A DNA stretch of 64,000 bases from Permianibacter fluminis (GTDB lineage Bacteria > Pseudomonadota > Gammaproteobacteria > Enterobacterales > Permianibacteraceae): assembly GCF_013179735.1 (NCBI RefSeq), contig NZ_JABMEG010000001.1, forward strand, positions 2,790,001-2,854,000. The letters run 5' to 3'. The notes beneath the pieces were generated by a model. It saw nothing but the letters and a program-made list of their open reading frames with translations. It did no database searches and was not told where the DNA came from. This document shows, one piece after another, positions 2,817 to 24,101 of the stretch. The first letter of the stretch is position 1; the number at the start of each line of letters is the position of its first letter. The translations under genes were made by a program, and so were the position numbers.

Positions 2817-2869
2817 GTAGGAGCGGGCTTGCCCGCGATTTACAAGATCGCGGGCAAGCCCGCTCCTAC
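2817..2869. repeat. Perfect 23-bp inverted repeat (REP-like hairpin)
   Basis: Arms 2817-2839 and 2847-2869 are perfect reverse complements (GTAGGAGCGGGCTTGCCCG and on), separated by seven bases. Each arm carries the GGAGCGGGCTTGCCCGCG core known from repetitive extragenic palindromes of Pseudomonas and relatives. It sits between two genes on the same strand and could act as a terminator-like or mRNA-stabilising hairpin. No second copy of the core was seen in this window. Confidence 0.85.
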
Positions 2870-2892
2870 AAAGACAGTCTTGGGAGTCGAAT

Positions 2893-3309
2893 ATGAAAAA
2901 TGCAGTTGCAGCCGAAGCTCTGTCAGCGTCTGAGCTGATCGATCAGCGCATCGGCGAACTAGCTGATTGGCGCGGTGAAACCTTGCGCCATATCCGCGAG
3001 CTCATCAAGGACGCTGATCCGGATGTCGTGGAGGAGTGGAAGTGGATGGGCACTCCGGTGTGGTCGCATGACGGCATTATCTGCACCGGCGAGTCTTATA
3101 AAGCGACCGTGAAGCTGACCTTTGCCAAAGGCGCGTCGTTGCCGGACCCAGCCAAGCTGTTCAATTCCAGCCTTGATGGCAATACCCGTCGCGCGATTGA
3201 TCTCCGCGAAGGCGAAGCAATAAACAAGACGGCGTTCAAGGCGCTCATCCGTGCAGCCATCGCCCACAACAGTGCCGGCAAAGCGAAGCCGAAGCGGGCA
3301 AAGCCGTAG
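2893..3309 (+). CDS. DUF1801 (YdhG-like) domain protein
   Basis: 138 residues. The central part (LRELIKDADPDVVEEWKWMG, then PVWSHDGIICTGESYKATVKL with a final NTRRAIDLREGE) follows the DUF1801 fold pattern: a helical N-terminal segment, an alpha/beta core and a C-terminal helix. The last ten residues are a Lys/Arg/Ala/Pro tail. The biochemical role of this family is not established. It is monocistronic, preceded by the palindromic repeat and followed by two intrinsic terminators. Confidence 0.75.
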   Translation: MKNAVAAEALSASELIDQRIGELADWRGETLRHIRELIKDADPDVVEEWKWMGTPVWSHDGIICTGESYKATVKLTFAKGASLPDPAKLFNSSLDGNTRRAIDLREGEAINKTAFKALIRAAIAHNSAGKAKPKRAKP

Positions 3310-3327
3310 TTAAATCGGTTATTGAAG

Positions 3328-3352
3328 AAAAGGCGCATTTTATGCGCCTTTT
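3328..3352. terminator. Intrinsic terminator after the DUF1801 gene
   Basis: AAAAGGCGCA, a short loop of T and A, then TGCGCCTTTTCC form a stem of about ten pairs ending in a T-rich run. The A-rich left side lets it work on both strands. Confidence 0.8.
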
Positions 3353-3388
3353 CCTTTGCCTCCGCCATTAGGTAGCTGATGCACAAAC

Positions 3389-3424
3389 CAAAACCCCATG
3401 CCTTTGCATGGGGTTTTCTTTTTC
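3389..3424. terminator. Second intrinsic terminator
   Basis: AAAACCCCATG, loop CCTTTG, CATGGGGTTTT, then TCTTTTT: a perfect stem followed by a T tract. It lies 37 bases after the first terminator. The remaining part of the 3310-3616 gap (3425-3616) is AT-richer and probably carries the promoter of the following gene, but I could not assign clear -35 and -10 boxes. Confidence 0.8.
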
Positions 3425-3616
3425 CACCGCATTTGTACGCCTCATCGGAATTAGATATATCGGCGTTTGCAGACGAAATTGGCTGACCTGCGTACGAGCC
3501 GAAGCGGACCAGTGCCCCTAGCACAGCCTTTGCTAATATGATTAGTCTCGGTAAGACTCACTTAAGGCCAATGCTCTTATGTTGATTTGAGTTGCGTTCA
3601 CTCGTGGTGCCGGGGT

Positions 3617-4591
3617 ATGCCAATGCGGTGCGACAAAAGCAATGCAGTGCGGAAACTGGTCGACCAGCACGGCGCTGCGACACACGCGGTCTGCGCATTG
3701 GTGCTGGCAGGTACGTTGGGGGGCAATGCAGAGGCGGCCGAAACCATCGATTTTGTGGCCGAGCACCTATTAGAGGTGCCGATGGATACGCGTTACCTTG
3801 CACTGCCGCAGCGACCATTCCTTGGACAAGCCCCAGAAACTCGCCTGCAACTAGGCTATGCCCATCTGCAAGCCGATACCTTGGCGAACTCTGTGCCGAT
3901 GCTGGCGATTCAGCGCTTTCAGCCGCTGTCTGACGATACGGCCCTGTTATTCAGCGGCTTCTATGACCAATACAATTTCAGCGGCAACACGGTGCGCGGT
4001 GAGCTGGATCCCTACTATGTCGAGTCGGGACCGTTCCCCGAACGGTTCATGGTGGATATCACCGATGTGTCCGGTGACGGAGCACACTACGGGGTGTCCG
4101 TTGCGTACAGCAAGCGATTGTATTCCTACTTCCATGGTCAAGTCGGCGTCACACTCGAGCGCATGAAGATTCGGTCGTTTGAGGTGGCATTTACGACCGT
4201 CGACCTGCCAACCAATTTCAGCGGAAATGTGGATTACGCCGCAACATACGACGTCGTAGCGCCATTTCTGTCATTCGACTGGGAGCCCAGGGAAGTGCTT
4301 GACGGCTGGTTGCACAGTGGCCGCATCATTTTGGTCTGGCCGCAACCGCATAAAGGTTTTGTCGGACGTATTTCGGGGCCCGATTTCGATCTGGCCGGCG
4401 ACACCGATCAGGCAGGCAACGGCAAGCATATTCCCGATGCTTTCCTTGGCTTTAGTTATTCCGTTGAGCATCAAGCATCCGGTTGGCGTTTTGATATTGG
4501 CGCGTTGCTGCACACCTATTTGCTGGAACCTACCGCACACAAAGATGTGGGCAGTCCGATTTTTATCACGGTCACCGTGCCCTTCGATTGA
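3617..4591 (+). CDS. Exported beta-barrel-like protein of unknown function
   Basis: 324 codons from ATG 3617 (ATG 3623 is an equal alternative; a longer TTG start at 3587 is less likely). A basic n-region and ATHAVCALVLAGTLGGNAEAA give a signal peptide with cleavage near residue 45. The mature chain shows repeated amphipathic strands with aromatic ends (ETRLQLGYAHL, TALLFSGFYDQYNFSG, WRFDIGALLHTYLL) and finishes with VTVPFD, close to the terminal-Phe signature of outer membrane barrels. It resembles the DUF6268-type group of uncharacterised outer membrane proteins only in general architecture. It is convergent with the sensor kinase gene, with about 30 bases between the stops. Confidence 0.6.
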   Translation: MPMRCDKSNAVRKLVDQHGAATHAVCALVLAGTLGGNAEAAETIDFVAEHLLEVPMDTRYLALPQRPFLGQAPETRLQLGYAHLQADTLANSVPMLAIQRFQPLSDDTALLFSGFYDQYNFSGNTVRGELDPYYVESGPFPERFMVDITDVSGDGAHYGVSVAYSKRLYSYFHGQVGVTLERMKIRSFEVAFTTVDLPTNFSGNVDYAATYDVVAPFLSFDWEPREVLDGWLHSGRIILVWPQPHKGFVGRISGPDFDLAGDTDQAGNGKHIPDAFLGFSYSVEHQASGWRFDIGALLHTYLLEPTAHKDVGSPIFITVTVPFD

Positions 4592-4623
4592 ACGGGCTGT
4601 GTCTCGCTTGCCGTGATGCAAAA

Positions 4624-5901
4624 TCAGGGCGTGTCTACGCGCAAGATCAGCGAAACCGTTGTGCCTTTCCCGACGGCACTATCAACTCTAAGGTGCCAAC
4701 CTAGCCGCGCTGCAATGCGCTGGATGATGTACAGACCGTAGCCGGCCGTAGCCTTCCACGGATGGGATGGCAGTGCGCTCAGCTGGTTGAGGGTGGCAGC
4801 CGGCATGCCGGGACCGACATCGGTGACGCTGAAAATGCCGCGGCACAAGCTGATATCGATGGGGCCCGACTGGCCATGTTGAATCGCGTTCCGAAGAATG
4901 TTGCCCAACGCAATGCTCACCAAGCGCGCAGGGCCGTGCACCTGGGTCGCATCGAGTCTACCAATGCGGATTTGCTGATGCTCATTCAGCAGGTGCTCAT
5001 GATCGCTCACCAGATTTTCGATCAATTTGTCGACGCGGCAACTCTCGTACTCGGCGCTTTCTTTTTCGTCTTCACGGGCCAAAAACAGCAGAACGGTCAA
5101 GGTGGCATTGGCGTCATTGGCGGCACGCACAATGCGATCAAGCGGACGTCTGAGGTGATCCGGCATATCCTCGCGGTTATTGAGCACGTCATTGGCGCCA
5201 CTGATAACTGCAATGGGGGTTCGTAATTCGTGGCCAACGGCAGCAAGAAACTCCTTTTCCCGATGCAACAAGCCGTTGATGCGGGCGACATAACCATCAA
5301 TTGCGGCCGCGATCTGCGCCGTTTCCAGGTCCGCGCGTTGATGCCCGATAATGGGGCCCGTTTCGTCGGGATCACGAGCGGCCACTTCCGTCGCCAAGGC
5401 AAGAATGGGGGTCGACAATCGGCTGGCCAACCAGTAGGCCAATGCCGTCAACAGCAATAGCATCGTCGCGACGCCCATCATGCCCCAGTACTGAAAGGCC
5501 TTTTCATCCGCTTCGAGTTGGGTGATATCGAACGCCAGGTAGATCCGCCCTTGCGCGTCATCCTGCACCAGCACAGCCCACAGGCGATTATCCAGCGTGA
5601 CATCATCATGAAAACCCGGCCGCAGACGCAAGATTTCAGTCGGGACCGGAATCGTTGGCGCGCCGGCTGCAGGCGCCACGTAGGTTCGCACCCGCTTGCC
5701 TGGCGTCGCATCCGGACCGAGTTGGCGCAGTGTCTCCAACTGCTCCAGTTCGATCTCCAACATAGTGTTCCAGATGGACTCTTCCACCCGTTCATTAAAA
5801 CCCTGACCGATCGCAACGACGACCAGCAGTACGGCGAACGCAAAAACTGCGAAAGCCAGCGTAGCGCGTTGGCGGAAGCTGGAGAGCGGCAGCTTAATCA
5901 T
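4624..5901 (-). CDS. Sensor histidine kinase of a two-component system
   Basis: 425 residues with a transmembrane helix at about 13-33, a periplasmic loop to about 137, a second helix at about 139-160, a short linker, and a HisKA/HATPase core. The H-box is FLAAVGHELRTP with phosphoacceptor His224; the N-box NILRNAIQHG is at 334-343, G1 (DVGPGMP) at 361-367 and G2 (GYGLYI) at 388-393. The start overlaps the response-regulator stop by eight bases, so both are made from one mRNA. The signal is unknown. Its periplasmic domain and its position opposite an envelope-modification cluster suggest that it senses a cell-surface condition. Confidence 0.9.
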   Translation of the reverse strand: MIKLPLSSFRQRATLAFAVFAFAVLLVVVAIGQGFNERVEESIWNTMLEIELEQLETLRQLGPDATPGKRVRTYVAPAAGAPTIPVPTEILRLRPGFHDDVTLDNRLWAVLVQDDAQGRIYLAFDITQLEADEKAFQYWGMMGVATMLLLLTALAYWLASRLSTPILALATEVAARDPDETGPIIGHQRADLETAQIAAAIDGYVARINGLLHREKEFLAAVGHELRTPIAVISGANDVLNNREDMPDHLRRPLDRIVRAANDANATLTVLLFLAREDEKESAEYESCRVDKLIENLVSDHEHLLNEHQQIRIGRLDATQVHGPARLVSIALGNILRNAIQHGQSGPIDISLCRGIFSVTDVGPGMPAATLNQLSALPSHPWKATAGYGLYIIQRIAARLGWHLRVDSAVGKGTTVSLILRVDTP

Positions 5902-6574
5902 CGGCAGCTATCCGGTAGCCTTCACGGTGCAGCGTTTTGATCAGTGCCGGCTGAAAATCGTGATCAACGGCGCGGCGCAGGGCATATAGATGGGCACGCA
6001 ACACGTCACCATCCGGCGGGGCCTCGCCCCAGACCTCTTGAATCAAGCGCTCACGCGTGACGACACGGGGTGACTCCCGCATGAGCAAGGCCAGCAACCG
6101 CCGACCAACCGGTGTCAGGACAATCGGCGTACCTGCCCGGTTGGCCCGTAGCGTTTCGGTGTCGAATTCCAGATCGCCCACCTTGAGGACCGGGTCGATG
6201 ATGCCGGAGTGACGACGCCGTCGGACCAACGCCTGCATCCGCACTTCCAATTCCGCCAGCGCGAACGGCTTGGTCAGGTAGTCATCAGCACCGACCCCAA
6301 AGCCCAGCAGCTTGTCATCCAGGGTGTCTTTGGCAGTCAGCATCACCACCGGCGTGTCCTTGCGCGCTTCGCGCCGTAACCGTTCGCAGAGGGTCAAGCC
6401 ATCGATTCCCGGCAAACCCAGATCCATCACGATGACATCGAAGTCCTCACATGCAGCCAAATGCAGTCCCGTGATGCCATCGGGAGCCGTTTGCGTTTGG
6501 TGACCGCGAGCTGACAGGAACTCAACGACGTTGGCTGACAGATCGCGATTGTCTTCGATAACGAGTGCTTTCAC
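5894..6574 (-). CDS. OmpR/PhoB-family response regulator
   Basis: 226 residues from a GTG start (VKALVIEDN), preceded by AGAGG eleven bases upstream; an upstream in-frame ATG would add 55 residues unlike the family and is rejected. The receiver domain has the acidic pocket E-D at 7-8, phosphoacceptor Asp51 in VMDLGLPGIDG and Lys102 in TKPF. The C-terminal half is a winged-helix trans_reg_C domain (LTPVGRRLLALLMR through LKTLHREGYRI-like strands). It pairs with the kinase encoded immediately downstream. Three half-sites spaced 11 bp upstream (6740-6767) are the natural candidate for its binding site. Confidence 0.92.
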   Translation of the reverse strand: MKALVIEDNRDLSANVVEFLSARGHQTQTAPDGITGLHLAACEDFDVIVMDLGLPGIDGLTLCERLRREARKDTPVVMLTAKDTLDDKLLGFGVGADDYLTKPFALAELEVRMQALVRRRRHSGIIDPVLKVGDLEFDTETLRANRAGTPIVLTPVGRRLLALLMRESPRVVTRERLIQEVWGEAPPDGDVLRAHLYALRRAVDHDFQPALIKTLHREGYRIAADD

Positions 6575-6739
6575 GGGCAGGACATGACCTCTTCGGAACG
6601 ATTCATCATGCGCACAATCACCGTAAAACTCAACGATGCCTCGCTGCAGGAAGGTGGGTAACGCCACGCTGCTCGCACTGCTGTCAGTAGCGTGGCGACA
6701 CCGCAGTGCGTAACCGGATAGGCGCGGCGGGTCGCCCAA

Positions 6740-6767
6740 ATGTCAATGAACTGTCAACGGCATGTGA
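6740..6767. promoter_or_regulatory. Candidate response-regulator operator with 11-bp direct repeats
   Basis: TGTCAA at 6740-6745, TGTCAA at 6751-6756 and TGTGAG at 6762-6767 recur at exactly 11 bp, the head-to-tail spacing bound by OmpR/PhoB-type winged-helix dimers. The site lies in the 315-bp divergent gap (6575-6889) between the response regulator and the phosphotransferase gene. The rest of that gap shows no other recognisable feature. That it is bound by the regulator encoded next to it is inference. Confidence 0.55.
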
Positions 6768-6889
6768 GCGTTATGGCAATGGCAGATGAAGTTTAGTCCT
6801 GTTAAGAAAACACCCAGACCAATCAGGCAATCATTCCGGTCGTAGCAGCGCTGCCGTGGGGCAGCCGGACGATGAGGGAGTGGCGATAG

Positions 6890-8896
6890 GTGGTTAGCAG
6901 CATTCAGCAATTTCAGGTTCCGGTTCGACTACGAGGGGTGGCGTTCAGAGTACTGGCATTCATCGCCATTGCGACGGCGCTCCGACTGGTGCTGTTCTTT
7001 ACCCACCTCGACCAGTTCAATCTGCCGATCACTCAGTTCTTCAAGAGCATGCTGACCGGACTTCGCTTTGATGTCGCTGTTGCGCTGTTGGTCGTGCTGC
7101 CTTACGCCTTGTCGATCTTACTGCTGCCAGCACGGCCAGCGCCTGCACGCTGGCGGCTGGGTCTACGCCAATTTGCCAACTTTGTGTTTCTGTTCGTGGT
7201 GTTGTATCTGACGGTGGTTGAGTTCTTCTTCTTCGACGAATTCAATGCCCGTTTCAATTTTGTCGCCGTCGATTACCTGCTGTTTCCCCATGAAGTGTTC
7301 GTCAACATATGGGATAGCTATCCCGTTGGCTGGGCACTGCTGCTGACGACTGTGGTGACCTACCTGCTGCATCGAGTGAGCTGGCCGACGCTGCTTCAGG
7401 CCTGGCGGAGCCCTTTGGTGCCGCGGCAGCGCGCGATCTGGCTAGGTTGCTATCTGATGCTGGCTGGCGCCGCGTTCTTTTCCATCAACATCAGTACCGC
7501 ACAGATCTCGTCCAATAGGGTCGCCAATGAGCTGGCCCTGAATGGCTACTACAGTTTCGGCTACTCGTTCGTCAGTAACGAAGTGAACTTCCGCGACAAT
7601 TACCGGCACTTGTCCGAGGCAGAGGCGCTCGAACGGACGCGCAACCAAATTGCCTTGCCACACGACGAATGGCTGAACAACGGCATGTCGGTTGACCGAC
7701 ATATCACCGTCAACGGTCAGCCGCGTCCCTTGAATGTCGTGCTCATTTTGGAAGAGAGTTTTGGCTCGGAGTTTAGCGGCTTGCTGCACCCTGAGCAGGG
7801 CGCCGGCGTCACACCGGAGTTCGACAAAGTCGCCAAACAAAGCCTGCTGTACAGCCATATCTACGCCAGCGGCAATCGGACAGTGCGGGCGTTGGAGGCC
7901 ACGCTAACCAGCTTCGTGCCAATTCCGGGACAGTCCATTGTCAAACGGCCGGGCGGCGAAAATGTTTTCTCGTTACCGGCATTACTGAAAGCGAAAGGCT
8001 ATCAGACCCGCTTCATTTACGGCGGCATGGGCTATTTCGACAATATGGCGCATTTTGCCCTGAGCAATGGATTTCAGTCGGCAGTTGATCAGACTGACTT
8101 CCAATCGGACGAAGTTTCCTTCACGACCATTTGGGGCGTCTGCGACGAGGATCTGTTCAATCGCTCGCTCAAGGAGCTGGATCAGCTCGCCACCCAATCG
8201 GAACCGTTCTTTACCACCATCCTAACGGTATCCAACCACAAACCGTATTTGTATCCCGAAGGTCGGATTGCTGAGGACCCCAAGCTGCAACGCCGGCGTC
8301 ACGCTGTCAAGTATGCCGATTTTGCGCTCGGCAAATTCCTGCATGACGCTCAGCAGCATGCGTGGTTCGACAATACGCTGTTCGTGATGCTGGGAGATCA
8401 CGGTGCTCGCGTTTATGGTGAGCAGGAAATTCCGATTTCGTCCTACGAAATTCCGGTTGCATTCTATGCGCCAAAACACATCGCGCCCGCACAGGATGAC
8501 CGACTCGGCGCCCAGATTGATATCGCGCCAACGATCATGGGCCTGCTCAATCTGGATTATAACAGCGCGTTCTTTGGCCGGGATTTGGCGCGCATCGACG
8601 ATACCAATCGCTATGCCTTGCTGTCGCACAACCGCGATGTGGCATTGCTGCGCGACAGCATGATGGTGGTGCTCGGAATTAAAGGCAGTGCCCATTTGTG
8701 GCAGGTGCTCAATCGCGAAGGAGAGACGACGCAGCTACCGCTAAACGACGGCAACACCTTGTTGCGTGACACCATCGCGATGTATCAGACCGGCTATGAA
8801 CTGTTCAGTCTCGGTCATTGGCGACCGTTGCCCCAGGTAGCACTCGCACCGGGGCAAATGCAGGTGCACACCACGCTTGCGGCAACCAGCCAATGA
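6890..8896 (+). CDS. LTA-synthase-like sulfatase-fold phosphotransferase (membrane)
   Basis: 668 codons from a GTG start. Five hydrophobic helices fill about residues 15-200, followed by a periplasmic sulfatase/alkaline-phosphatase-fold domain. Metal and catalytic signatures are visible: LILEESFGSEF (first metal ligand), GNRTVRALE with the candidate Thr nucleophile, and MLGDHGARVYGE (Asp-His metal ligands). This is the layout of LtaS and OpgB (MdoB), which move glycerophosphate from phosphatidylglycerol onto an envelope acceptor. A Gram-negative would more likely decorate periplasmic glucans or a lipid than make lipoteichoic acid; the acceptor is unknown. The stop overlaps the next start by four bases. 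Confidence 0.85.
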   Translation: MVSSIQQFQVPVRLRGVAFRVLAFIAIATALRLVLFFTHLDQFNLPITQFFKSMLTGLRFDVAVALLVVLPYALSILLLPARPAPARWRLGLRQFANFVFLFVVLYLTVVEFFFFDEFNARFNFVAVDYLLFPHEVFVNIWDSYPVGWALLLTTVVTYLLHRVSWPTLLQAWRSPLVPRQRAIWLGCYLMLAGAAFFSINISTAQISSNRVANELALNGYYSFGYSFVSNEVNFRDNYRHLSEAEALERTRNQIALPHDEWLNNGMSVDRHITVNGQPRPLNVVLILEESFGSEFSGLLHPEQGAGVTPEFDKVAKQSLLYSHIYASGNRTVRALEATLTSFVPIPGQSIVKRPGGENVFSLPALLKAKGYQTRFIYGGMGYFDNMAHFALSNGFQSAVDQTDFQSDEVSFTTIWGVCDEDLFNRSLKELDQLATQSEPFFTTILTVSNHKPYLYPEGRIAEDPKLQRRRHAVKYADFALGKFLHDAQQHAWFDNTLFVMLGDHGARVYGEQEIPISSYEIPVAFYAPKHIAPAQDDRLGAQIDIAPTIMGLLNLDYNSAFFGRDLARIDDTNRYALLSHNRDVALLRDSMMVVLGIKGSAHLWQVLNREGETTQLPLNDGNTLLRDTIAMYQTGYELFSLGHWRPLPQVALAPGQMQVHTTLAATSQ

Positions 8897-14802: not shown

Positions 14803-15415
14803 CACGTCCAGTTTTAGCTCGCTCAATGCCCTAATTTGCAAAATCAAAAGACGAGTTGTTTGGCTGCGACGCCAAAGTCTTACATAAGGTTCTTCCGGCC
14901 GCTGTACGCATGATTGGCTGTTCGGCCACGGTTGGCTAGCTAACCACCCCGCAGCGCAGTCAGCATTTGATTGCAGCTATCTCCGGTCGCCCTGTCACTG
15001 GTATCCGGTTTCGATCGTCATCGCTCGCCGGTCACGCTGGCAATTTGGCCCGGGCCTACAAAAAAACCAATTTTCTCGATTACTATCAAATGGATAGGGT
15101 ATTTTTTGCAATACTTAGCCACCTTTGACGGCAAGGCGGTCCAACGGCGACCGAACGGTTGGAACCTACAAATCGTTGGCGGTAAGTTCAGCCTGTGACT
15201 AGCCTCTGGCTATTTGTGCTGCCCATGTAACAAGTGAGCTCGACGATTCGCAACAACGGTAGTCAGAGAATCGCGGTTGGCATCTACTACCGGCACCGAA
15301 TCAAGCTGGTATCGCAGAGGTACCTAAGAGCTTGGCCGGAGGCAGTTGCTCGGATACCGACAACCCTTCTTCTATTACTTACGCTGTTAGGCACCATCAT
15401 TCTCAAGGGCTGACC
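14803..15415. other. 613-bp gap at the left edge of the accessory region
   Basis: No convincing gene was found. The part around 15050-15115 is markedly AT-rich (runs of A and T around a TTTTTTGCAATAC segment), unlike the flanks. Short open frames such as 14971-15198 lack a ribosome-binding site. No tRNA, integrase or direct repeat that would define an attachment site was recognised. Confidence 0.4.
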
Positions 15416-16072
15416 ATGAACTCATCTCAGGTAGCGGATCCCCAGGCGATCTGTGAAGACTTCCTTGTCAAAGGGAAACGCCACAACATTGAGCAAAGGA
15501 TTCTTGTTAGTGAGAATGTCGTCGCAGACCGACTGCTAGCCCGCGGGCTTGAACTAAAAGATGCCTACGATGAGTTGTACAACAAGCTCCATAGACATCC
15601 CAATGCACTCCAGGACTTTCTCAAGCTAATATTGAGCGCCACTGCATTTTGGAATCCTGCGGCGGCAAACATGTCACGTGCTGCGCGTGACGAGCTCGTG
15701 AAAATCAACGAGCAGATCGCGAAGAAAGCGGCCGATCTGGCAGCCCTGCTGGAACAGCGGTCAGTGCTAAACAATACGTCAGGTTTCTGGAGCGAAACAC
15801 ACTTCCATGTTGGCGATGTGATCAAAGCTGCATCCCGCCGCAACCAGCTATTTGACATCTACCTCAAAGAGCACCTAGATACCCTGATTGGCCGTTTTGA
15901 CCCTAAGTACTGGCCCACGCTGAGTGAGTTCCTGAATGAGCTGGCGACAAACGCCGAACAAGGGGATGTTGCAGCCACGGATCCGTTGACGGCAGCCGCC
16001 ACCCATGCGGCGCGACCGTCCCTAGCCGATTTCCTCAAGGCCTTGTTCGCATCCATAGAAGAGAACAGATAA
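15416..16072 (+). CDS. Unknown helical protein, perhaps prematurely stopped
   Basis: 218 codons from ATG 15416. The chain is mostly helical and polar, with a heptad-like region (ELVKINEQIAKKAADLAAL, then LEQRSV) that could form a coiled coil, and no signal peptide, membrane helix or known motif. After the TAA at 16070-16072 the same frame stays open for another 50 codons to 16225 and still reads like protein (RLPKDFRLTDRSLASLV, LEPDDMIDESYVKRL). Either a nonsense mutation shortened the gene or the extra segment is chance. Base composition is closer to AT than the housekeeping genes here. The next gene begins 56 bases after the second stop. Confidence 0.6.
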   Translation: MNSSQVADPQAICEDFLVKGKRHNIEQRILVSENVVADRLLARGLELKDAYDELYNKLHRHPNALQDFLKLILSATAFWNPAAANMSRAARDELVKINEQIAKKAADLAALLEQRSVLNNTSGFWSETHFHVGDVIKAASRRNQLFDIYLKEHLDTLIGRFDPKYWPTLSEFLNELATNAEQGDVAATDPLTAAATHAARPSLADFLKALFASIEENR

Positions 16073-16280
16073 GCCAACTTCGGACGACTCCCAAAAGACT
16101 TCAGGCTCACAGACAGATCGTTGGCTTCGCTAGTAAACTGCGCATTAGATCTGGAACCTGATGACATGATTGACGAGTCGTATGTGAAACGACTTCGTCA
16201 ACGTGAACGCAATGAAACCAAGTAAGTACACGCGGCAACATGTTGTTCAAGGGATTGCTTAATATCAAAAGGAATCACAG

Positions 16281-17327
16281 ATGGCCTCTCATGTTTACCT
16301 ACCAACCTTGAAATGGATGAAAGCGGAGAAAGATACGCTGCTCAATTTGGCGGTTTCGGTCAAAGCCAATCTCTTGCCTTTGCTGGAGCTGCGCAAGTCG
16401 GAACGTGTGCCGAATTTCATAGCGGAGTGGGAGCGGTATTGGAAGCAGCCGGCGTTGTTCGATTGCGCCACAGTCGAAGGTGAGTTATCAGAAGTCCGTG
16501 AGGCAGCCTTGCTGCATGTTATGCAGAACCTTGGGCCTCACGCTGCGTTGCTGGGTCCGGTAGTCAATCCGGAGCGCATCAAGCATTTGCCAGCCCCTTT
16601 GCTGGCTTTGCTGCGAGCGCACCAAGGACCAATGGCAGTCCGGTTGCGTATCAAAGCGATGTTGACCAGCCAGCAAGAAGAGGCGGCTTTTTCCGCCTGC
16701 GCAGGATTAAATCGCATCCCGGCGGCCATGACACTGGTCGTGGATATGTGTGAGACACCGCAGCTGACGGATGCCGAACAAAATGCACTCGTTGCTGCGC
16801 TTCAGCGTCTGCAGCAACAGGGGTGGCAACAGGTGTATCTGCTGTCCGGCGCCTATCCCATCGACTCCCGGCAAATGCGCGTCGGTCGCAATGAAGTGGT
16901 GCGAACGGACTGGCAGCTATGGCAAACCCTCATTCAAAAACGGGGTCTCACGAACGTGTACTATGGTGACTACGGTATCGTGTCGCCGAAATGGGATGAA
17001 GACGATGCGATACGGCGCGGCAAAATCAATTATCGCTACGCCGCAGCGAAGCACTGGATCGTCTACCGCAGTGATTCCGATGGCGGTACGGCTGGCAATG
17101 AGTTGGCACAGCTGCTGACGCTGGAAAGCGATTTCCGTTGCGCTGCCTTTAGTTGGGGCGATGACCGAATCGAGCAACGAGCGGACAATACGAGCGGAAA
17201 ATTCAAATTGGGCTGCGGCAACAAAACGCAGCATATTGCCGAAGGGATGAATCACCACCTTACGCAGGTAGTGGATCAGCTCTTACCGGCGTCCGGTTCA
17301 GCAAGCAGCGGCGCACCAGCTCTTTGA
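16281..17327 (+). CDS. Beta-family protein (sce7725-like)
   Basis: 348 residues. The opening YLPTLKWMKAEKDTLLNLA and LPLLELRKSE follow the start of the Beta protein family (PF14350, named after a phage T4 protein), whose members begin Y.P.LK.K.GE..AL and I.PL.E. Members are found in phages and next to defence genes; their activity is unknown. The C-terminal stretch of about 20 residues after QVVDQLLP is low in complexity. Its 3' end overlaps the convergent sce7726-like gene by 68 bases. Sce7725 and sce7726 family proteins are named as a neighbouring pair, so this pair probably acts together despite the opposite orientation. Confidence 0.75.
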   Translation: MASHVYLPTLKWMKAEKDTLLNLAVSVKANLLPLLELRKSERVPNFIAEWERYWKQPALFDCATVEGELSEVREAALLHVMQNLGPHAALLGPVVNPERIKHLPAPLLALLRAHQGPMAVRLRIKAMLTSQQEEAAFSACAGLNRIPAAMTLVVDMCETPQLTDAEQNALVAALQRLQQQGWQQVYLLSGAYPIDSRQMRVGRNEVVRTDWQLWQTLIQKRGLTNVYYGDYGIVSPKWDEDDAIRRGKINYRYAAAKHWIVYRSDSDGGTAGNELAQLLTLESDFRCAAFSWGDDRIEQRADNTSGKFKLGCGNKTQHIAEGMNHHLTQVVDQLLPASGSASSGAPAL

Positions 17328-17823
17328 GATCCGCCACCATCAATTTTTCTGCCAACAGTTCGTGCAGGCGGTACAGCGGCAGACGGGTGGCGCGTGTCTC
17401 TTCCAACGCCAGCAAGTTGGGCTGAATCTCCTCGCGCTCGAGCAGTTGGGCCAAGGCCAGCGGCGAAAAGCCCGGATTGGCATGTGGGGAGCGCTGCCAG
17501 GTAAGACGCTCATGGGTTTCATCCACGATCATCACGCCCCACCAGTCCGGGATCAGGTCCAGCGCTGCGTCCAGATGCCGAACGGCCGTCACCAAGGTGA
17601 CGTGGTCAAAGACGCGTCCGTACTGCCAGCCTTGCTTGACCAGGCGCTGAAGCGTGTCGCGTGAGCTTTTGATCTCGTAGCAATCCAGGTGACCGTAGAC
17701 AGCCACCACATCGGCTCGAACCACTCCGCGGCCTAGTCGCAGCTCTTCCAGCACCACCGGTGAGGGGCGCACGCTGCTTTGCAGCTGCTGGCACAAGGCC
17801 GTGCGGATGGCATGCTCTCGCAT
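17260..17823 (-). CDS. sce7726-family protein with PD-(D/E)XK-like core
   Basis: 187 residues. The N-terminal half matches the sce7726 family: IRTAL at 6-10, Glu27, VRADVVAVYGHLDCYEIKS with Asp38 and Glu50-x-Lys52, then LQRLVKQGWQYGRVFDHVTLV and IPDWWGVMIV. The E...D...E-x-K order is that of PD-(D/E)XK nucleases, so a nuclease role is a reasonable inference but not shown. It is transcribed leftward from a gap shared with the HTH gene and overlaps the Beta-family gene at its 3' end, which could couple their expression through antisense transcripts. Confidence 0.8.
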   Translation of the reverse strand: MREHAIRTALCQQLQSSVRPSPVVLEELRLGRGVVRADVVAVYGHLDCYEIKSSRDTLQRLVKQGWQYGRVFDHVTLVTAVRHLDAALDLIPDWWGVMIVDETHERLTWQRSPHANPGFSPLALAQLLEREEIQPNLLALEETRATRLPLYRLHELLAEKLMVADLKELVRRCLLNRTPVRADPLPA

Positions 17824-17889
17824 ATCGCGTTTCCCCTCGTTGAACGGGCCGGCACTTTACTTGAAAGCAGGTTACTCCTACTATAGACG

Positions 17890-18104
17890 TTATGCAATTA
17901 TGCGAAAGGTAGTTTATGAGCGCATACCGACCAGCGGCCGTCCTGGTGGCGGAAATACGGCAAGCTCTAGCCGCCAAAGGGCCGCTCAATACCTTGCGTA
18001 TTGCCAGGGAAACAGCGTTAACGCAGTCCAATGTGCATCGCTGTCTGCGCGGTCAGCCCAAGCGGGTCGGCAAGACGCTGCTCGCTTTATGCATTTATGC
18101 GAAA
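17890..18104 (+). repeat. Pair of near-identical 18-bp elements at the HTH gene
   Basis: Positions 17890-17907 and 18087-18104 match in 17 of 18 bases (TTATGCAATTATGCGAAA and TTATGCATTTATGCGAAA). Each copy holds two TTATGC half-sites spaced eight bases apart. The first lies in the promoter region just upstream of the HTH start and the second inside its coding sequence, an arrangement used by autoregulators that bind upstream and internal operators. Confidence 0.5.
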
Positions 18105-18290
18105 ATAGACCCAGCAATGGATAAGCTTACCGCCGCCAATAACGCCACTTTGATGCATGCACTCGAACAAGTCTGGGATGGCAGCGAGCAACACGCGCGC
18201 TCGCTGGCCCGCTTGCTGATTGCGGCCAGCAACGCCGCGCTGCCACAATCCCGCCCCAATCCCAGACACCGAGCCGGAGCGGCCCCATGA
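17916..18290 (+). CDS. Small HTH protein, first gene of a peptidase/PIN operon
   Basis: 124 residues. The segment LNTLRIARETALTQSNVHRCLRG (about 24-46) fits a helix-turn-helix of the XRE/Cro or replication-regulator kind, followed by a second helical block and a disordered Pro/Arg/Ala tail. The stop overlaps the ImmA/IrrE-like gene by four bases (ATGA). Candidate operators lie upstream and within the gene. XRE-type regulators commonly precede ImmA/IrrE peptidases, which cleave or inactivate such repressors; by analogy this protein may be the repressor of the operon and the peptidase substrate. Confidence 0.65.
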   Translation: MSAYRPAAVLVAEIRQALAAKGPLNTLRIARETALTQSNVHRCLRGQPKRVGKTLLALCIYAKIDPAMDKLTAANNATLMHALEQVWDGSEQHARSLARLLIAASNAALPQSRPNPRHRAGAAP

Positions 18291-19327
18291 CAGCCACCAC
18301 CGTTCCGCCCCTGACGCCGACGCAGCTTTATCAGCAGCTGCAAAAGCAAGGGTTTCCACGCAGCTTCGTTGAGCGCCTGCTTCCCGACTGGTGGGATGAC
18401 AGCCTGCTGAAGACGACGAGCGGCTTGCTGGAGCTGGCCGTCATTTTGCGTCGTCGCACCGCCGCCGAACTGCAAATCGGCACCGACGGCCGGGTCACCC
18501 TGTCCCCGCCCGGGCAACCGATGCGATTCAAGAAGCGCAGCACGACCGGTGAGCACGATCTGCATGTGGCCAGTCAGCTGGCGTTAGCCATCGCGCGAAT
18601 TGCCGTTACCGCTGCGCCTCGTTATCGGCCGTTGCCCTCCGACGCCATTGCCTTACGCAATGCGGCGCTGGCTTGCTCCAAGCGGCCAGCGCTGGATTTT
18701 GTTGGGCTCATTTCCTATTGCTGGCAAAGCGGCGTGCCGGTGTTGTTCCTCAAAAATTTACCCGCCAATCGCCGCCGAATGGCGGGGGTCGCCTTACGGG
18801 TCCAGCAACGCCCCGTGATTGTGCTTGGTTATCAGGACGCCAACCCCTCCAAGCAACTGTTTGTGCTCGCGCATGAGCTTGGTCATCTGCAGCTCGGCCA
18901 TGTCGCCGATGATCAGCTGCTACTGGATGAGCGCATGGACCAAATTGAAGCCTCCTTGCGCGACGGCGAGAACGATAAAGACGAAATCGCTGCCGATGCG
19001 TATGCCTTTGAGCTGCTTCGTGGTGCCGCTGCCGATCTGATTGCGCAATTGCCCGCCACAGGCACCGCGAGCGCACTCGCTTTAACGGCCCTGCAGCTGG
19101 AAAAACACCATGGTGTTGATGCCGGCCATCTGCTCTGGTCGTATGCCTACACCAGCAAGGATTGGGCACGCGCCAATATGGCGGTCGATTTCTTGCCCAT
19201 GCGAAAAACCACCGCATTTGAGGTGCTCGAAGCAACTCAACGTGAAGCGATACAGCAAGCGCTGCTGCCGCCGGAAGAGTTGAACTATCTGCTCACGATG
19301 CAAGGGTTCTCCTTCGCCAAGGACTAA
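18287..19327 (+). CDS. ImmA/IrrE-type zinc metallopeptidase
   Basis: 346 residues. The gluzincin signature AHELGHLQLGH supplies His196, catalytic Glu197 and His200, and DEIAADAYAFELL supplies the third ligand Glu233 with the A-D-x-x-A pattern of the ImmA/IrrE (COG2856) family. The N-terminal 130 residues hold helical segments of unknown role, and about 90 residues follow the peptidase core. Known members cleave phage or ICE repressors, DdrO in Deinococcus, or act in toxin-antitoxin modules. It overlaps the HTH gene upstream and is followed six bases later by the PIN-like gene. Confidence 0.88.
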   Translation: MTATTVPPLTPTQLYQQLQKQGFPRSFVERLLPDWWDDSLLKTTSGLLELAVILRRRTAAELQIGTDGRVTLSPPGQPMRFKKRSTTGEHDLHVASQLALAIARIAVTAAPRYRPLPSDAIALRNAALACSKRPALDFVGLISYCWQSGVPVLFLKNLPANRRRMAGVALRVQQRPVIVLGYQDANPSKQLFVLAHELGHLQLGHVADDQLLLDERMDQIEASLRDGENDKDEIAADAYAFELLRGAAADLIAQLPATGTASALALTALQLEKHHGVDAGHLLWSYAYTSKDWARANMAVDFLPMRKTTAFEVLEATQREAIQQALLPPEELNYLLTMQGFSFAKD

Positions 19328-19333
19328 GGCGCG

Positions 19334-19957
19334 ATGCTGTTGCTGGATAACGATGCGGCGACCAAATTGGCTCGGTACGATCTGTTGGCCGAGCTGCTTA
19401 TCGCATTTCGTGTCGGCTGGGCCGACATCTATCTCCTTGACTCGCTGAAATACCGCTTCCATTTGACGGATGCTCTGCACGCGGAGCGTCTACTCGGGTC
19501 GTCGGGGGCTGTACAGCGGGTCCAGCAATTGGTTGCGCAGACGCAGCCGCTCATCCTGTCAACGGCCACTGTCACCGAAACTATGAACTTGCTAAATGCA
19601 ATCGATGATCCCGGTATTGATGCCGGGGAACAGGTGTTGTTCGCCTATCTCGCTGCAGATCCTGACAGCACGCTGATCACCGGTGACAAGAACGCCATTC
19701 GGGCGCTGGCCCGGCATACCTACCATCCAGCTATTGCGAGCTGCCAGGGCCGCATCATTTGTTTGGAACAAGCAGTGAAGACAATTGCCCTGCGCGGCAC
19801 TGTAGCTGCGTTATGCAGCAAGCTGCAGGCCGATTCAGCGGCCGACAAAGCCGTTGCAATTTGCGCTCGCCAACCATCGAGTTTCCTCGACTGCATGGAC
19901 AGCTATATCGCGGCGCTACGCGCTTCAGCGGGCGGTTTATTGTGCCCAGACATCTGA
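19334..19957 (+). CDS. PIN-like nuclease domain protein
   Basis: 207 residues. The start MLLLDNDAATKL places Asp5 as in PIN strand 1; IDAGEQVLFAYL gives Asp96 and Glu99 in the E-x-x-A helix position, and LITGDKNAIRAL gives Asp118 in the T-x-D strand of PIN nucleases. Together these form a plausible acidic metal site. The C-terminal 80 residues are divergent. PIN domains are often RNase toxins, and pairs of DUF4411 PIN proteins with ImmA/IrrE peptidases are known; this one is not obviously DUF4411. The tight spacing (six bases) to the peptidase gene argues for a joint role. Confidence 0.7.
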   Translation: MLLLDNDAATKLARYDLLAELLIAFRVGWADIYLLDSLKYRFHLTDALHAERLLGSSGAVQRVQQLVAQTQPLILSTATVTETMNLLNAIDDPGIDAGEQVLFAYLAADPDSTLITGDKNAIRALARHTYHPAIASCQGRIICLEQAVKTIALRGTVAALCSKLQADSAADKAVAICARQPSSFLDCMDSYIAALRASAGGLLCPDI

Positions 19958-20042
19958 CCGTGCGCGCACCGGTGAAAATGCCGCCCGAGACTGGGAACGC
20001 GTAACGAGGTGATCGGACAGGACGAGCAGTTCTGGCACTGGC

Positions 20043-20768
20043 TCAATAATCCAGTAACTCATTAGCCACTTGTGCGGCCCTAACCACCGCTTTGGGGTCG
20101 GCGACCAGGAGTTCGTGAGGACGTGCACCATTCAAATAACCATTTGGTGCATAGAACCAGAATGAGATCGCCCAGCCCGTTGCCCCTTTCGGGAATGATT
20201 CGATGATCTGCTTCACTTCAGGACGGATAGAGCCAGTGACTGGATCAAACTGATAGCCGGGAAACATTTCCGTCTCGCCAACGCTGACGGCAAACAGTTC
20301 ATTTTTTCCTCTCCGATCTGCAATCACTTCGCCAGCTAGTGAAGCAGAAAACCCCATCCGTATGGCAACACCTTCGCGGTCCAAATGCTCAATGTTGGAG
20401 AGAATACGGTAGCGGCGCTCTGCGCCGAGCAGGAGTTGTCTTGCGGTACCGCCCTGCAACAGTCCGGGATTGGCAACCAAGTCGGCGATAACTCGCTCCC
20501 GCGACTCTGCCAAAGAACGAGTCGTTGCACGGAGAACTCGCAGCGCTGCTCTCAACGCCGGGAGTTTGGAGATCCATGAAGCGGCATCTTGATTAGCATT
20601 CAACTCTAGCATCCACCGTTCGCAATCTGCGAGGTAGCCCTCTTGGCCAATAAAACAGGCTGCCTCTTGCTGCAAAACAGCATAGACATCGGCATCATCC
20701 AGCAAGAGTGACGATGGGCATAATCCAAGACTGTCGTCATCTGAAGATTGGCACTTATCACTAGGCAT
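20043..20768 (-). CDS. HTH plus MbcA/ParS-type antitoxin-like protein
   Basis: 241 residues. The region LLGAERRYRILSNIEHLDREG then IRMGFSASLAGEVIADRRG looks like the helix-turn-helix of the MbcA/ParS/Xre group, and FPGYQFDPVTGSIRPEV, then WAISFWFYAPNGYLNGARP and DPKAVVRAAQ match the DUF2384 toxin-binding domain closely. Such proteins normally neutralise RES-domain NAD-degrading toxins encoded next to them. No RES domain was recognised in the neighbours. An N-terminal extension of about 80 helical residues precedes the HTH. A TTGACG box with a 17-base spacer lies upstream. Confidence 0.72.
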   Translation of the reverse strand: MPSDKCQSSDDDSLGLCPSSLLLDDADVYAVLQQEAACFIGQEGYLADCERWMLELNANQDAASWISKLPALRAALRVLRATTRSLAESRERVIADLVANPGLLQGGTARQLLLGAERRYRILSNIEHLDREGVAIRMGFSASLAGEVIADRRGKNELFAVSVGETEMFPGYQFDPVTGSIRPEVKQIIESFPKGATGWAISFWFYAPNGYLNGARPHELLVADPKAVVRAAQVANELLDY

Positions 20769-20871
20769 GGCAGATACCCTCGGTGACTACGACTCAACTT
20801 ACTCGGGCTAGTGTCGCTATCGGGAAAAAGCGTCAAGCCGAATTTGTCCTGTAACAGTCATTCGCATAAAT

Positions 20872-21603
20872 TCAGCCATCTGTGTCGGCCTCGGTACTGA
20901 CCCCGGGGTACCCAGCAGGCAGTCCCTGTGAGAAAATCACGACTCGCAACACCTTATCCGGCGAGAGATGTACCCAATCCGGAAACGTTGAGTCGATCAG
21001 CATCAGCAGCTCCGGCAAATCGGACTGTAGCATCGGAAGCTGACGCAAGCCTTCCTGTATCATACGATAGCCACGCAACGCCATGCTACGCAGCTCTAAG
21101 GAGCTAATCAGCTCGGACTCCCAGACGAAGAGCAATAGTGTGGCTAAGCCATCGAAATTACCCAGTGCCGCCAGCTGATGGATCAACACGTTTGTCACAT
21201 CTGCACGTTGCCATTTACCCACATTCAATGAGCAAGGCACGAACAGCAGATCCCGCAACTGTGGCTGTGCCAACAGCAGATCATTGATTTCCGCTTGGCT
21301 GTTTGGCTTGGTGCGAATGACGTGCCACAAGAAATGCTCGTGCCATTGCGCCGTCCCTGGTACCTCTGCCTCGACCCGAAGCACTTTTTCGGGCCTCGGG
21401 TTGTTTAACCCTTCCTTGTAGTTCTTCCACTTGCGGCTCCAATCGGTTTTGGAGTCATGCCGGTATATCTGCTCACCATCAAACCTTGCCTGCAAACCCC
21501 GGTCATCCAGTCCGGTGGCCAGTGATACCGCGCGATACCAGATTTTTGCTCGTAGCGTTTCCAGAGGCAGCCGGACTGGTCGTCCACGGGTCTTCTTGGT
21601 CAT
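20872..21603 (-). CDS. Unknown protein next to a perfect palindromic operator
   Basis: 243 residues of no recognised family. The basic start MTKKTRGRPVRLPLETLRAK resembles DNA-binding tails (AT-hook-like RGRP), followed by WYRAVSLATGLDDRGLQARF and WSRKWKNYKEGLNNPRP, which could be a recognition helix region, then a leucine-rich helical part to the C-terminus. No catalytic motif was seen. Its start codon lies 11 bases from a perfect 13-bp inverted repeat shared with the divergent small HTH gene. It could be a regulator or the effector of a two-gene module; I have no basis to choose. Confidence 0.6.
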   Translation of the reverse strand: MTKKTRGRPVRLPLETLRAKIWYRAVSLATGLDDRGLQARFDGEQIYRHDSKTDWSRKWKNYKEGLNNPRPEKVLRVEAEVPGTAQWHEHFLWHVIRTKPNSQAEINDLLLAQPQLRDLLFVPCSLNVGKWQRADVTNVLIHQLAALGNFDGLATLLLFVWESELISSLELRSMALRGYRMIQEGLRQLPMLQSDLPELLMLIDSTFPDWVHLSPDKVLRVVIFSQGLPAGYPGVSTEADTDG

Positions 21604-21613
21604 CCCATCCTCG

Positions 21614-21642
21614 CGGTAAAGAAATTCCGAATTTCTTTACCG
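21614..21642. promoter_or_regulatory. Perfect 13-bp inverted repeat, candidate divergent operator
   Basis: CGGTAAAGAAATT (21614-21626), spacer CCG, AATTTCTTTACCG (21630-21642). The two arms are exact reverse complements. The site lies in the 99-bp gap between two divergent genes, 11 bases from the start at 21603 and 60 bases from the start at 21703. There is no T tract, so a terminator is unlikely. Confidence 0.75.
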
Positions 21643-21702
21643 GTTGTATCAGATCTCGGAGCTGTACGACTATCCCGATATCTGCATTAAGGAGAAACGT
21701 CC

Positions 21703-21966
21703 GTGACAGACGATACCCTACAAGACATCGACGTATTAAAGCGGGACTTGGCGAGGCGCTATGGCGAGCTCATTAGTGGCGACGATTTACGCAAACACTT
21801 GGGCTACGCGAGTCCGGCCGCGTTCCGGCAAGCCATCTGTCGTGGCGTGGTACCCATTCCCGTGTTCACATTGCCGAATCGCCGAGGCCGCTATGCGTGG
21901 GTGCGCGATTTGGTGAATTGGTTGATCCAGGTTCGGAATGAAACCCGTGTGACCAAGCGTGACTGA
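21703..21966 (+). CDS. Small AlpA-like DNA-binding protein
   Basis: 87 codons from a GTG start with AAGGAG eight bases upstream. The centre, ISGDDLRKHLGYASPAAFRQA, then VPIPVFTLPNRRGRYAWVRDLVNWL, has the winged-HTH plus beta-hairpin pattern of AlpA/PrtN/excisionase-like regulators, in which the strand with N.RGR.AW contacts DNA. Such proteins switch mobile elements or regulate neighbouring operons. It is divergent from the unknown gene and separated from it by the palindrome. The 3' side is a hairpin-rich gap before a transposase. Confidence 0.65.
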   Translation: MTDDTLQDIDVLKRDLARRYGELISGDDLRKHLGYASPAAFRQAICRGVVPIPVFTLPNRRGRYAWVRDLVNWLIQVRNETRVTKRD

Positions 21967-22050
21967 GAGAAATTTCGTAAGCGAATAAGAGAGAGAAATC
22001 ATGAACAGCAGCTAGCGACCGCGAGATTTTGGGGCGCCAGAAAGCACAAC

Positions 22051-22200
22051 GCCCGGCCCCTTTGGCGAGAGGTCGGGCGCGAACTGCGGAAAAGCCAAGC
22101 AGCTTTCGGACCGTAGTTTCCGTGTGAGCGAGCAACTTGTCAAGGCCTGAGCAATGTCGTCAGGCCTCACGGCAGGATGCTGCTCCCGTGCGCCCTGCCG
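22051..22200. other. Three consecutive hairpins upstream of the transposase
   Basis: In the 21967-22280 gap three stems follow each other: GCCCGGCC / GGTCGGGC (22051-22058 with 22071-22078, one wobble), AGGCCTGA / TCAGGCCT (22143-22150 with 22160-22167) and CGGCAGG / CCTGCCG (22170-22176 with 22194-22200). None has a clear T tract. They could shield the transposase from read-through transcription or belong to the element end. No gene was found in this gap. Confidence 0.5.
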
Positions 22201-22280
22201 CTGGCCTCCGCCGGCAGGATGGTCTGCATCACCGCTGATAGTGACGCAGGCCGTAACCGTGGCACAGATACGGGAACGGG

Positions 22281-23426
22281 ATGGCACAGCATTATCTGCT
22301 GTCTGCCAAGGCACGGGATTTTTCGCTTCGCGATATCGACAAAATGAGCGAAGACGATGCGTGGTGGCGGTTCGTCGAGAGCCGCTGGGGTGGACGTGAT
22401 CAACAAGGGTGCCCAGGATGCGGCGTCTTTGACCGCCATTACGCCATTCGTACCCGCAAACAATGGCGTTGCAAGCATTGCACACGCACGTTCAGCGTTA
22501 CCTCGGGCACAGTGTTTGCCGATCGCAAACTCAGCTTTAAAGACATTCTTCGCGCGGATTTTCTCTTTGCCGCATCCGCGAAAGGAATCTCGCATGTTGC
22601 ACTGGCCACGCAGATGGGCGTGGCTTACAAAACAGCAATGGTTTTGGCCCATAAACTGCGCGAAGCCCTTTACCATTCCCGAGACACCTCGCCCTTGAGT
22701 GGTGAGATCCACATCGATGGCGGCCATTTCGGCGGCAAACCGAGGCGGCCGCGGGTTCGCAACAGAAAGCCGTCTACGGAGGAACTTCAGGCTCATATTA
22801 TGGGGAGGCGGCGTAAAGGAAAAAATGCGCAGCCAGACTTACCTGAAATGTCAATGGAATCCGAACGCCACCCGAAAAATGGACAGCACCGCAAACGGGT
22901 TGGTTTGAGCAAGTTGAATCAGAGAAAAAAGGAGAACCGAAGAATCGTCTTCGTGCTGCGAGAGATTCACCCGGAGCCCGGTCACGGAGCGCAACGCACC
23001 AGGGTATCCGTCGGCCTCAGTGAGAATGAGAAGAATGCGATGGCACTTGCCCAGCGCTATATAGCGCCTGGGAGCACGGTGCATTCGGATGAAAACCCGG
23101 CCTATTTCCGCTTTGATGGCTTGTACACACACCGCACGGTTGAGCATTCCAAGGAATACGCAACCGAGGATGGTATCCATCAGAACCAGGCGGAATCGTA
23201 TTTTTCTCGGCTTCGGCGCTACGAGTACGGGGTCGGTCACCAGATCCGCAAACGATACTTGGCGCTCTATGCAAATGAAATGGCGTGGCGAGAGGATTAT
23301 CGTCGCCATAGCGTTGGTGTACGATTCAACAAGTTGCTTCAGCAAACACTACAGGTTGGCTATTCGAAGTGGTGGCGCGGCTATTGGCAAGGATACAAAC
23401 TGCCAGAAGAGCTCCTCATGGACTAG
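22281..23426 (+). mobile_element. IS1595-family transposase
   Basis: 381 residues. The N-terminus has a zinc ribbon (CPGCGVFDRHYAIRTRKQWR then CKHC with TFSVTSGTVF), as in the ISXO2/IS1595 transposase group. The catalytic DDE/DDN-type core is visible as EIHIDGGHFGGK, VHSDENPAYF and HQNQAESYFSRLRR. It seems full length, so the element may be active. Terminal inverted repeats were not resolved: GGCGCC motifs at 22033 and 23450 are partly similar but no target duplication flanks them. It ends 19 bases before the stop of the convergent gene and marks the right part of the accessory region. Confidence 0.88.
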
Positions 23427-23445
23427 TTTCGGTCTATCGCTCACT

Positions 23446-23973
23446 TCAGGGCGCCTTAAACTGCCAATAGGGGTCCCGAAGACCCTCCCTACCGTTCAAT
23501 CGCGTTACTTTCCCATCTCGTAGAAGGTTCCGCAACCTGTGGCGAATGGCCTTGCGAAATTCGACGAATTCGACTTCCGAAAACTCAACGCCTTCGTTGT
23601 GTATAACAAAAGTGGCAATTTCGAGCACTTTAAAAGCCTTTTCCTTGTCGGATGCCAAACACATATAGATTGCTCGGGTCATCCTGCCCCACGCCAATAA
23701 GCGTGAGTTTAGAATTGGTTTGATCGGTTGCACCATCGTTGGGTCGACCGGTATCTCGTAGAGCGAGATGGTGTGGTCGATCACCTCCAGGTCCTTCTTC
23801 AGACGCTGCGCTTTTTCTGCCAGTACGGCGAATGTTTGGAGCTTGTCCTCTATGTAAGCGATTTTTCCGGACAGACGGGCTCGCTTATCCAAAAGCCAGA
23901 AGAGTGTTGGGGGAGTTCGAGTTCGCATAATGATGGGGAGGTTAACGAAACCCTCCCCAAACATCATGTGCAA
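23446..23973 (-). CDS. Unknown coiled-coil protein
   Basis: 175 codons from ATG 23973; ATG 23928 (MRTRTPPTLFWLL) would give 160 residues and is also possible. The first half contains LSGKIAYIEDKLQTFAVLA and AQRLKKDLEVIDHTISL, a likely coiled coil; the second half has short helices and ends in a Gly/Arg-rich segment (RNLLRDGKVTRLNGREG) before WQFKAP, which looks like a winged-helix wing. No family recognised. The gene sits between the transposase and the ordinary chromosomal genes and may be part of the mobile region. Convergent with the transposase. Confidence 0.6.
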   Translation of the reverse strand: MHMMFGEGFVNLPIIMRTRTPPTLFWLLDKRARLSGKIAYIEDKLQTFAVLAEKAQRLKKDLEVIDHTISLYEIPVDPTMVQPIKPILNSRLLAWGRMTRAIYMCLASDKEKAFKVLEIATFVIHNEGVEFSEVEFVEFRKAIRHRLRNLLRDGKVTRLNGREGLRDPYWQFKAP

Positions 23974-24101
23974 CAGCTACCTAATGGCGTTTGCCTCGGC
24001 AGTGGCACGCCCTCGCTGCGCAAAAGGCTCGGGTATACTTTGGCCGATTTTCGCCATCCCCGCCGTCACTGCCAGTCACCTTTGCCAAGGAAGCCCATCC
24101 T

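Follow-up and report, generated by a model that had tools for sequence, protein, structure and literature searches.

Introduction

A three-component system of a helix-turn-helix (HTH) protein, a COG2856 peptidase and a PIN or RelE protein was predicted by Makarova et al. in 2009 (PMC2701414), and NetFlax predicts PIN partners for ImmA-domain controllers of the RosmerTA (RmrT/RmrA) type (PMC10440598). PD-λ-2 (Vassallo et al. 2022, PMC9519451) comprises a β-family protein, an ImmA-domain control protein and a toxin-like protein, its β component (C) being required for defence and dispensable for neutralisation, while in P4 gop-β-cII (Rousset et al. 2022, PMC9122126) the β gene is followed by a convergent cII/sce7726 gene. 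In CapH-CapP, the peptidase CapP cleaves an HTH repressor (PMC13373217), and both CapP and PprI are switched on by single-stranded DNA (ssDNA; PMC10904395, PMC13373217). Here, a locus of five genes encoding a β-family protein (β), an sce7726-family protein, an HTH-family protein, an ImmA/IrrE metallopeptidase (ImmA) and a PIN-fold protein (PIN) was analysed in a 64,000-nt stretch of Permianibacter fluminis (GCF_013179735.1, NZ_JABMEG010000001.1, 2,790,001-2,854,000), hereafter the window, to which positions are relative. The cassette probably represents an undescribed variant among virus-defence or toxin-antitoxin devices.

Comparison with described systems

The locus can be read as a PIN-armed form of the PD-λ-2 and P4 gop-β-cII kind. 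It shares the three protein kinds of PD-λ-2, and the PD-λ-2 of locus L135 also converges on an sce7726 gene, but the window carries PIN in place of HigB, encodes its HTH protein and peptidase separately, and has β-sce7726 upstream of a divergent promoter, not downstream of the toxin operon as in PD-λ-2. The HigB-like PD-Lambda-2_A model was matched by L135 and L138 and by none of the window proteins scanned, and ImmA matches PD-Lambda-2_B over residues 146-277 only (E 1.7e-5, against 4e-155 for L135). P4 (L016) has the same β and convergent cII/sce7726 genes, but neither ImmA nor PIN, and its cII is longer (264 aa); no gop was found in the window locus, a phmmer search with P4 gop matching P4 only.

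RosmerTA likewise pairs an ImmA-domain controller with diverse toxins, although the HTH protein of the window is the product of a separate gene; RmrA models cover no more of ImmA than its catalytic stretch (best E 1.1e-5), and in the PADLOC scan no RmrT model matches PIN, although RmrT toxins are diverse and PIN proteins are among the predicted partners. CapH-CapP has the HTH protein and the CapP-like peptidase fold in common with the window but controls a separate immune operon (CBASS and others), whereas the window peptidase adjoins PIN, usually without an HTH gene. VapBC resembles the locus in the PIN fold and conserved acidic site of VapC, but the window PIN has a C-terminal helical extension and no Pfam PIN match, and in place of a small DNA-binding VapB, which was not seen, ImmA precedes it in every untruncated locus. 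The systems of Makarova et al. contain the same three protein kinds as HTH-ImmA-PIN and embody the idea of a peptidase-controlled toxin, but are predictions only, mainly of HTH-peptidase fusions, and include neither β nor sce7726. An earlier note on this DNA, made from the sequence alone, had presented HTH-ImmA-PIN as an exact three-gene set that it did not know; as an idea, the combination goes back to the 2009 prediction. What appears new is the five-gene set and this PIN family, the three-protein idea and systems with β, cII or ImmA being already known; a search confined to open-access literature, with subscription papers and preprints outside it, returned nothing on either.

Conservation of the five-gene set

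All five genes are present in six loci, namely two copies in this genome and, in identical order and orientation at ~27-37% identity, one in each of four Alteromonadaceae assemblies, with β at the equivalent position in L019, L020, L021 and L023. The second copy in the P. fluminis genome lies ~156 kb away, window positions 16250-23991 being repeated at 86.8% identity (L003, 5898-13627). The ratio of non-synonymous to synonymous divergence (omega) between the copies is 0.093 for β, 0.14 for sce7726, 0.12 for HTH, 0.067 for ImmA and 0.21 for PIN, and neither copy contains stops. Given omega values of 0.07-0.21 and the absence of stops, both copies are maintained by selection. Since the gene order is kept in other families and the second copy is intact under purifying selection, the set is more than a chance assembly.

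The genes are tightly coupled (Table 1): β and sce7726 are convergent, their 3' ends overlapping by 68 bp, and sce7726 is divergent from HTH-ImmA-PIN (17916-19957, plus strand), within which HTH and ImmA overlap by an ATGA at 18287-18290 and ImmA and PIN are separated by six bases (19328-19333). The earlier note had described the last four of the five genes, the ATGA overlap and the gap of six bases, and all of these features are present as described. Its unit of HTH, ImmA and PIN likewise holds as a conserved, coupled set, with a gene order preserved across families and copies, but it left out β and sce7726, and the three genes alone were rejected as a complete unit, since these two belong to it as well.

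Table 1. Features of the five-gene locus, in window positions
Feature	Position	Strand	Remarks
β-family protein (Pfam Beta_protein; P4 β / PD-λ-2 component C)	16281..17327	+	348 aa
sce7726-family protein (P4 cII relative), predicted PD-(D/E)XK nuclease	17260..17823	-	187 aa
Putative divergent intergenic promoter/operator region	17824..17915	.	92 bp between divergent starts
Operator candidate TTATGCAATTATGCG	17890..17904	+	11 nt upstream of HTH start codon
HTH-family protein, putative autorepressor	17916..18290	+	124 aa
Second operator-like site TTATGCATTTATGCG	18087..18101	+	Inside HTH gene
ImmA/IrrE metallopeptidase	18287..19327	+	346 aa; helical LPxWW domain at the N-terminus, catalytic domain ~117-307
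PIN-fold protein, putative RNase toxin	19334..19957	+	207 aa

ImmA-PIN as the core of the cassette

Searches seeded with PIN only returned 62 loci (43 genomic and 19 viral), and addition of plasmid, E. coli and own-genome loci brought the total with this PIN family to 76, in 46 clusters at 85% identity. ImmA lies directly upstream of PIN in 61 of the 62 PIN-seeded loci, the sole exception being L026, which is cut off by a contig edge 63 bases from the PIN start, and most ImmA-PIN gaps fall between -8 and +8 bp. A gene of this HTH family is present in 11 of the 76 loci; the other 65 carry ImmA-PIN without it. The co-occurrence that the earlier note proposed to check is constant for ImmA and PIN, but mostly missing for HTH. 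As most loci lack the HTH gene while ImmA always adjoins PIN, the core is ImmA-PIN, with repressor cutting at most an added layer, and the HTH protein was rejected as the general target of ImmA.

The PIN family is spread over Proteobacteria, Cyanobacteria, Chloroflexota, Acidobacteriota, Myxococcota and Rhodothermota, and a chromosomal ImmA-PIN pair on its own is found in another genome of the same order as P. fluminis. In the PIN tree, the five-gene PINs form a single group (support 89/80), to be read with caution on account of long branches.

Predicted structure of PIN and ImmA

None of 42 PIN relatives has a Pfam match and no PADLOC model matches PIN, but the AlphaFold model (predicted local distance difference test, pLDDT, 94.8) places VapC chains in the top rows of its structural matches, with Z up to 9.8 over ~123 residues and a Foldseek probability of 1.0. 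The acidic residues D5, D96, E99 and D118 are conserved among the 42 relatives, including the Asp5 and Asp118 singled out in the earlier note, and the assignment to PIN made there agrees with the predicted fold. On the basis of this model, PIN is probably a VapC-like RNase toxin.

ImmA passes the cut-off of PF06114 (E 4.9e-6), and its HExxH residues H196, E197 and H200, together with E233, are invariant in 41 relatives, E197 being the glutamate named for mutation in the earlier note. In the AlphaFold model (pLDDT 86.3), the catalytic domain (117-307) matches CapP and IrrE in fold, the closest solved structure being that of CapP (7t5t: Z 9.7, 166 residues, root-mean-square deviation 5.4; hidden Markov model E 6.2e-5); structure comparison assigned no known fold to the N-terminal LPxWW domain. 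Neither ImmA nor PIN had a close match among 50,697 annotated phage records, yet both are present in prophages. Sequence searches of the PDB with profiles of PIN, β and HTH returned nothing usable, and the only PDB match of the sce7726 profile, an unrelated viral fusion protein, was taken as chance.

The β and sce7726 genes

β matches PF14350 (E 4.4e-47) and the PADLOC model PD-Lambda-2_C (E 9.9e-24), and the sce7726-family protein matches NCBIfam NF033832 (sce7726; E 4.9e-39), the PADLOC cll model (E 2.6e-17) and Pfam MmcB-like (E 1.2e-4). Residues D38, E50 and K52 of the latter protein are invariant as far as P4 cII, forming the D...ExK motif expected of the PD-(D/E)XK nuclease superfamily, and from this motif the protein is probably such a nuclease.

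β loci were drawn from samples of 197 and 369 genomes, and 13 informative, unrelated loci were read. An ImmA peptidase is part of the β module in 12 of the 13 and sce7726, convergent with β, in nine, and the toxin-like neighbour is variable: HigB in the true PD-λ-2 loci L135 and L138, small membrane or secreted proteins in L096, L098, L139 and L140, DUF6932 in L136, and, in the β-ImmA-sce7726 modules of L101 and L102, a GNAT-like protein at the toxin position (clearly so in L102, weakly in L101). The plasmid locus L143 encodes an annotated HTH regulator, ImmA, β and sce7726, and β-sce7726 pairs stand alone in L134 and L144. In the β tree, P4 clusters with the loci that encode membrane proteins; the β proteins of the window and of Alteromonas cluster with L100 (support 85/96), a locus (2568-7594) with a divergent β-sce7726-HTH-ImmA layout in which another downstream gene replaces PIN and a second ImmA gene adjoins β. 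A scan of viral contigs seeded with β found no relatives. In L140 (4596-8163), an ImmA-β pair is tandemly duplicated in one genome with no sce7726 nearby.

The HTH protein and candidate operator

The HTH protein family is conserved in alignment across 11 loci. The sequence TTATGCANTTATGCG was found twice in the 64 kb with at most two mismatches, just upstream of the HTH start and within the HTH gene. As at least two matches at this tolerance occurred in 8 of 100 shuffled windows, the case for an operator rests on exactness and conservation rather than on count: a TTATGC half-site lies upstream of the HTH start at a similar distance in all six five-gene loci (including L003, L019, L020, L021 and L023), L023 has a perfect palindrome GCATAATTA-GT-TAATTATGC at the operator candidate, and a tandem TTATGC repeat is found at the corresponding position of each of the six HTH genes. 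These sites provide a lead for autoregulation through a candidate operator shared by two lineages. The divergent region is near-identical in the second copy except beside the operator-like site; within it, a consensus scan gave no sigma-70-type promoter, and no Rfam family or tandem repeats were found.

Genomic setting

Twenty-four ImmA-PIN loci occupy the interval between gpA and gpQ of P2 prophages, a known hotspot of anti-phage systems (Rousset et al., PMC9122126), and ImmA-PIN pairs occur on plasmids and prophages, those of E. coli included. In Methylococcales (L029, L030, L031, L035, L036, L042 and L046), a type III restriction-modification mod gene follows close behind ImmA-PIN, mostly with res, and in cyanobacteria ImmA-PIN adjoins type ISP restriction-modification genes. 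A BpsA_C-type methyltransferase and an unassigned protein, usually together with a P-loop kinase, adjoin ImmA-PIN in L005, L007, L010, L011, L028, L033, L040 and L051; this neighbour set, found in Rhizobiales, Pseudomonas and Holophagaceae, is possibly another defence module. Both the second P. fluminis copy and those of Alteromonas are carried by islands, alongside efflux or redox genes. The Alteromonas cassette adjoins a glutamate dehydrogenase gene, and a search with that protein returned homologues.

The synonymous divergence (dS) along the duplicated block of P. fluminis is uneven, at ~0.44-0.49 for β, HTH, ImmA and PIN, 0.20 for sce7726, 0.12-0.16 for the two genes that follow and 1.25 for an IS1595 transposase, which suggests a mosaic history. 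The first of two further genes in the block (20043-21603) encodes a protein whose C-terminus weakly resembles MbcA/ParS (E 0.073); the second is closely preceded, in both copies, by a perfect 14+14 palindrome, GAATTTCTTTACCG (21614-21642). The block could not be assigned as a transposon, as convincing terminal inverted repeats bounding it are absent. Directly upstream of β, and outside the block, is a gene of unassigned family (15332-16072) that is absent beside the second copy.

Proposed mechanism and alternative explanations

The reading favoured here, to which a probability of roughly 0.5 is assigned, is that of a five-gene toxin-antitoxin-like anti-phage cassette in which ImmA controls PIN and the HTH protein adds a further layer. 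PIN would act as a VapC-like RNase effector and the co-translated ImmA as its obligate controller, keeping it silent in resting cells, most likely as an antitoxin or partner by analogy with RosmerTA and PD-λ-2; silencing could work through binding, the mode suggested by NetFlax and RosmerTA, or through the cutting of some target. In the HTH-bearing subgroup, the HTH protein would act through the TTATGC operator to repress the divergent promoter from which it, ImmA-PIN and sce7726 are expressed. Upon infection or DNA damage, ImmA would probably cut the HTH protein, or change its own hold on PIN, thereby raising expression and freeing PIN, which would then stop translation, with β and sce7726 serving as accessories for phage defence, not toxin control. 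The ssDNA or damage trigger and the cutting of the HTH protein are proposed because ImmA most resembles CapP and IrrE, which are ssDNA-activated and cut HTH proteins, and by this analogy a CapP-like cut is plausible in the HTH-bearing subgroup.

The switch put forward in the earlier note, in which peptidase cleavage of the repressor releases PIN, is borne out in its catalytic residues and in the kinship of ImmA with CapP, but fails as a general route of PIN release given the many loci without HTH. That same distribution implies that PIN is controlled without HTH, and renders unlikely a CapH-CapP-like explanation whereby the HTH protein is the repressor or antitoxin and its cleavage by ImmA upon infection or damage alone frees PIN, despite the overlap of the HTH and ImmA genes, the operator-like sites close to the HTH start, the closeness of ImmA to CapP and IrrE in both sequence and fold, and the ssDNA activation of CapP and PprI (PMC10904395, PMC13373217). 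It is rather doubtful that the cassette is an addiction module that chiefly stabilizes mobile islands, with defence secondary: ImmA-PIN pairs on plasmids and prophages, the location of the cassette within islands and the retention of two diverged copies in one genome would fit such a role, but the enrichment at the gpA-gpQ hotspot and beside restriction-modification genes, the experimentally anti-phage relatives of β (PMC9519451, PMC9122126) and the single chromosomal ImmA-PIN pair of L142 argue against it. Improbable, finally, is a chance adjacency of two independent modules, β-sce7726 and HTH-ImmA-PIN; each is also found alone, as ImmA-PIN pairs or the β-sce7726 pairs above, but the identical five-gene order recurs in two families and two copies, β is accompanied by some ImmA almost everywhere, and the window and Alteromonas β proteins cluster with L100 and its divergent HTH-ImmA layout.

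Several observations weigh against the favoured reading of a PIN cassette controlled by ImmA. Overexpression toxicity in PD-λ-2 arises from the HTH-peptidase protein and not from the HigB-like one (PMC9519451), and because that peptidase protein is itself toxic, the roles of ImmA and PIN may be swapped; the P4 β-sce7726 pair, moreover, functions without ImmA (PMC9122126). No published experiment on a protein from this PIN family was found, and the five-gene group is known from only two lineages, on long branches. The HTH assignment falls below Pfam thresholds (best match HTH_26, E 0.017), the operator pattern was chosen post hoc after inspection of the sequence, and the intragenic TTATGC repeat may stem from conserved L-C-x-Y-A codons.

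Implications

It is tentatively suggested that β, sce7726 and ImmA constitute a general, unrecognised defence core with exchangeable toxins, in which β/sce7726 would sense infection and of which P4 gop-β-cII would be a reduced member. If so, the toxins of this core would include HigB in PD-λ-2, small membrane proteins of the P4 gop-like kind, acetyltransferase-like proteins and, here, a PIN protein without a Pfam family under a divergent, HTH-controlled promoter. The shared β, sce7726 and ImmA parts connect P4 gop-β-cII and PD-λ-2, which were described separately, and the analysis adds a widespread PIN family unknown to Pfam that is constantly paired with a peptidase, also in prophages of E. 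coli. It also distinguishes two possible roles for ImmA in toxin systems, as a cutter of repressors and as an antitoxin, and the repressor-less two-gene loci render the choice between them directly testable.

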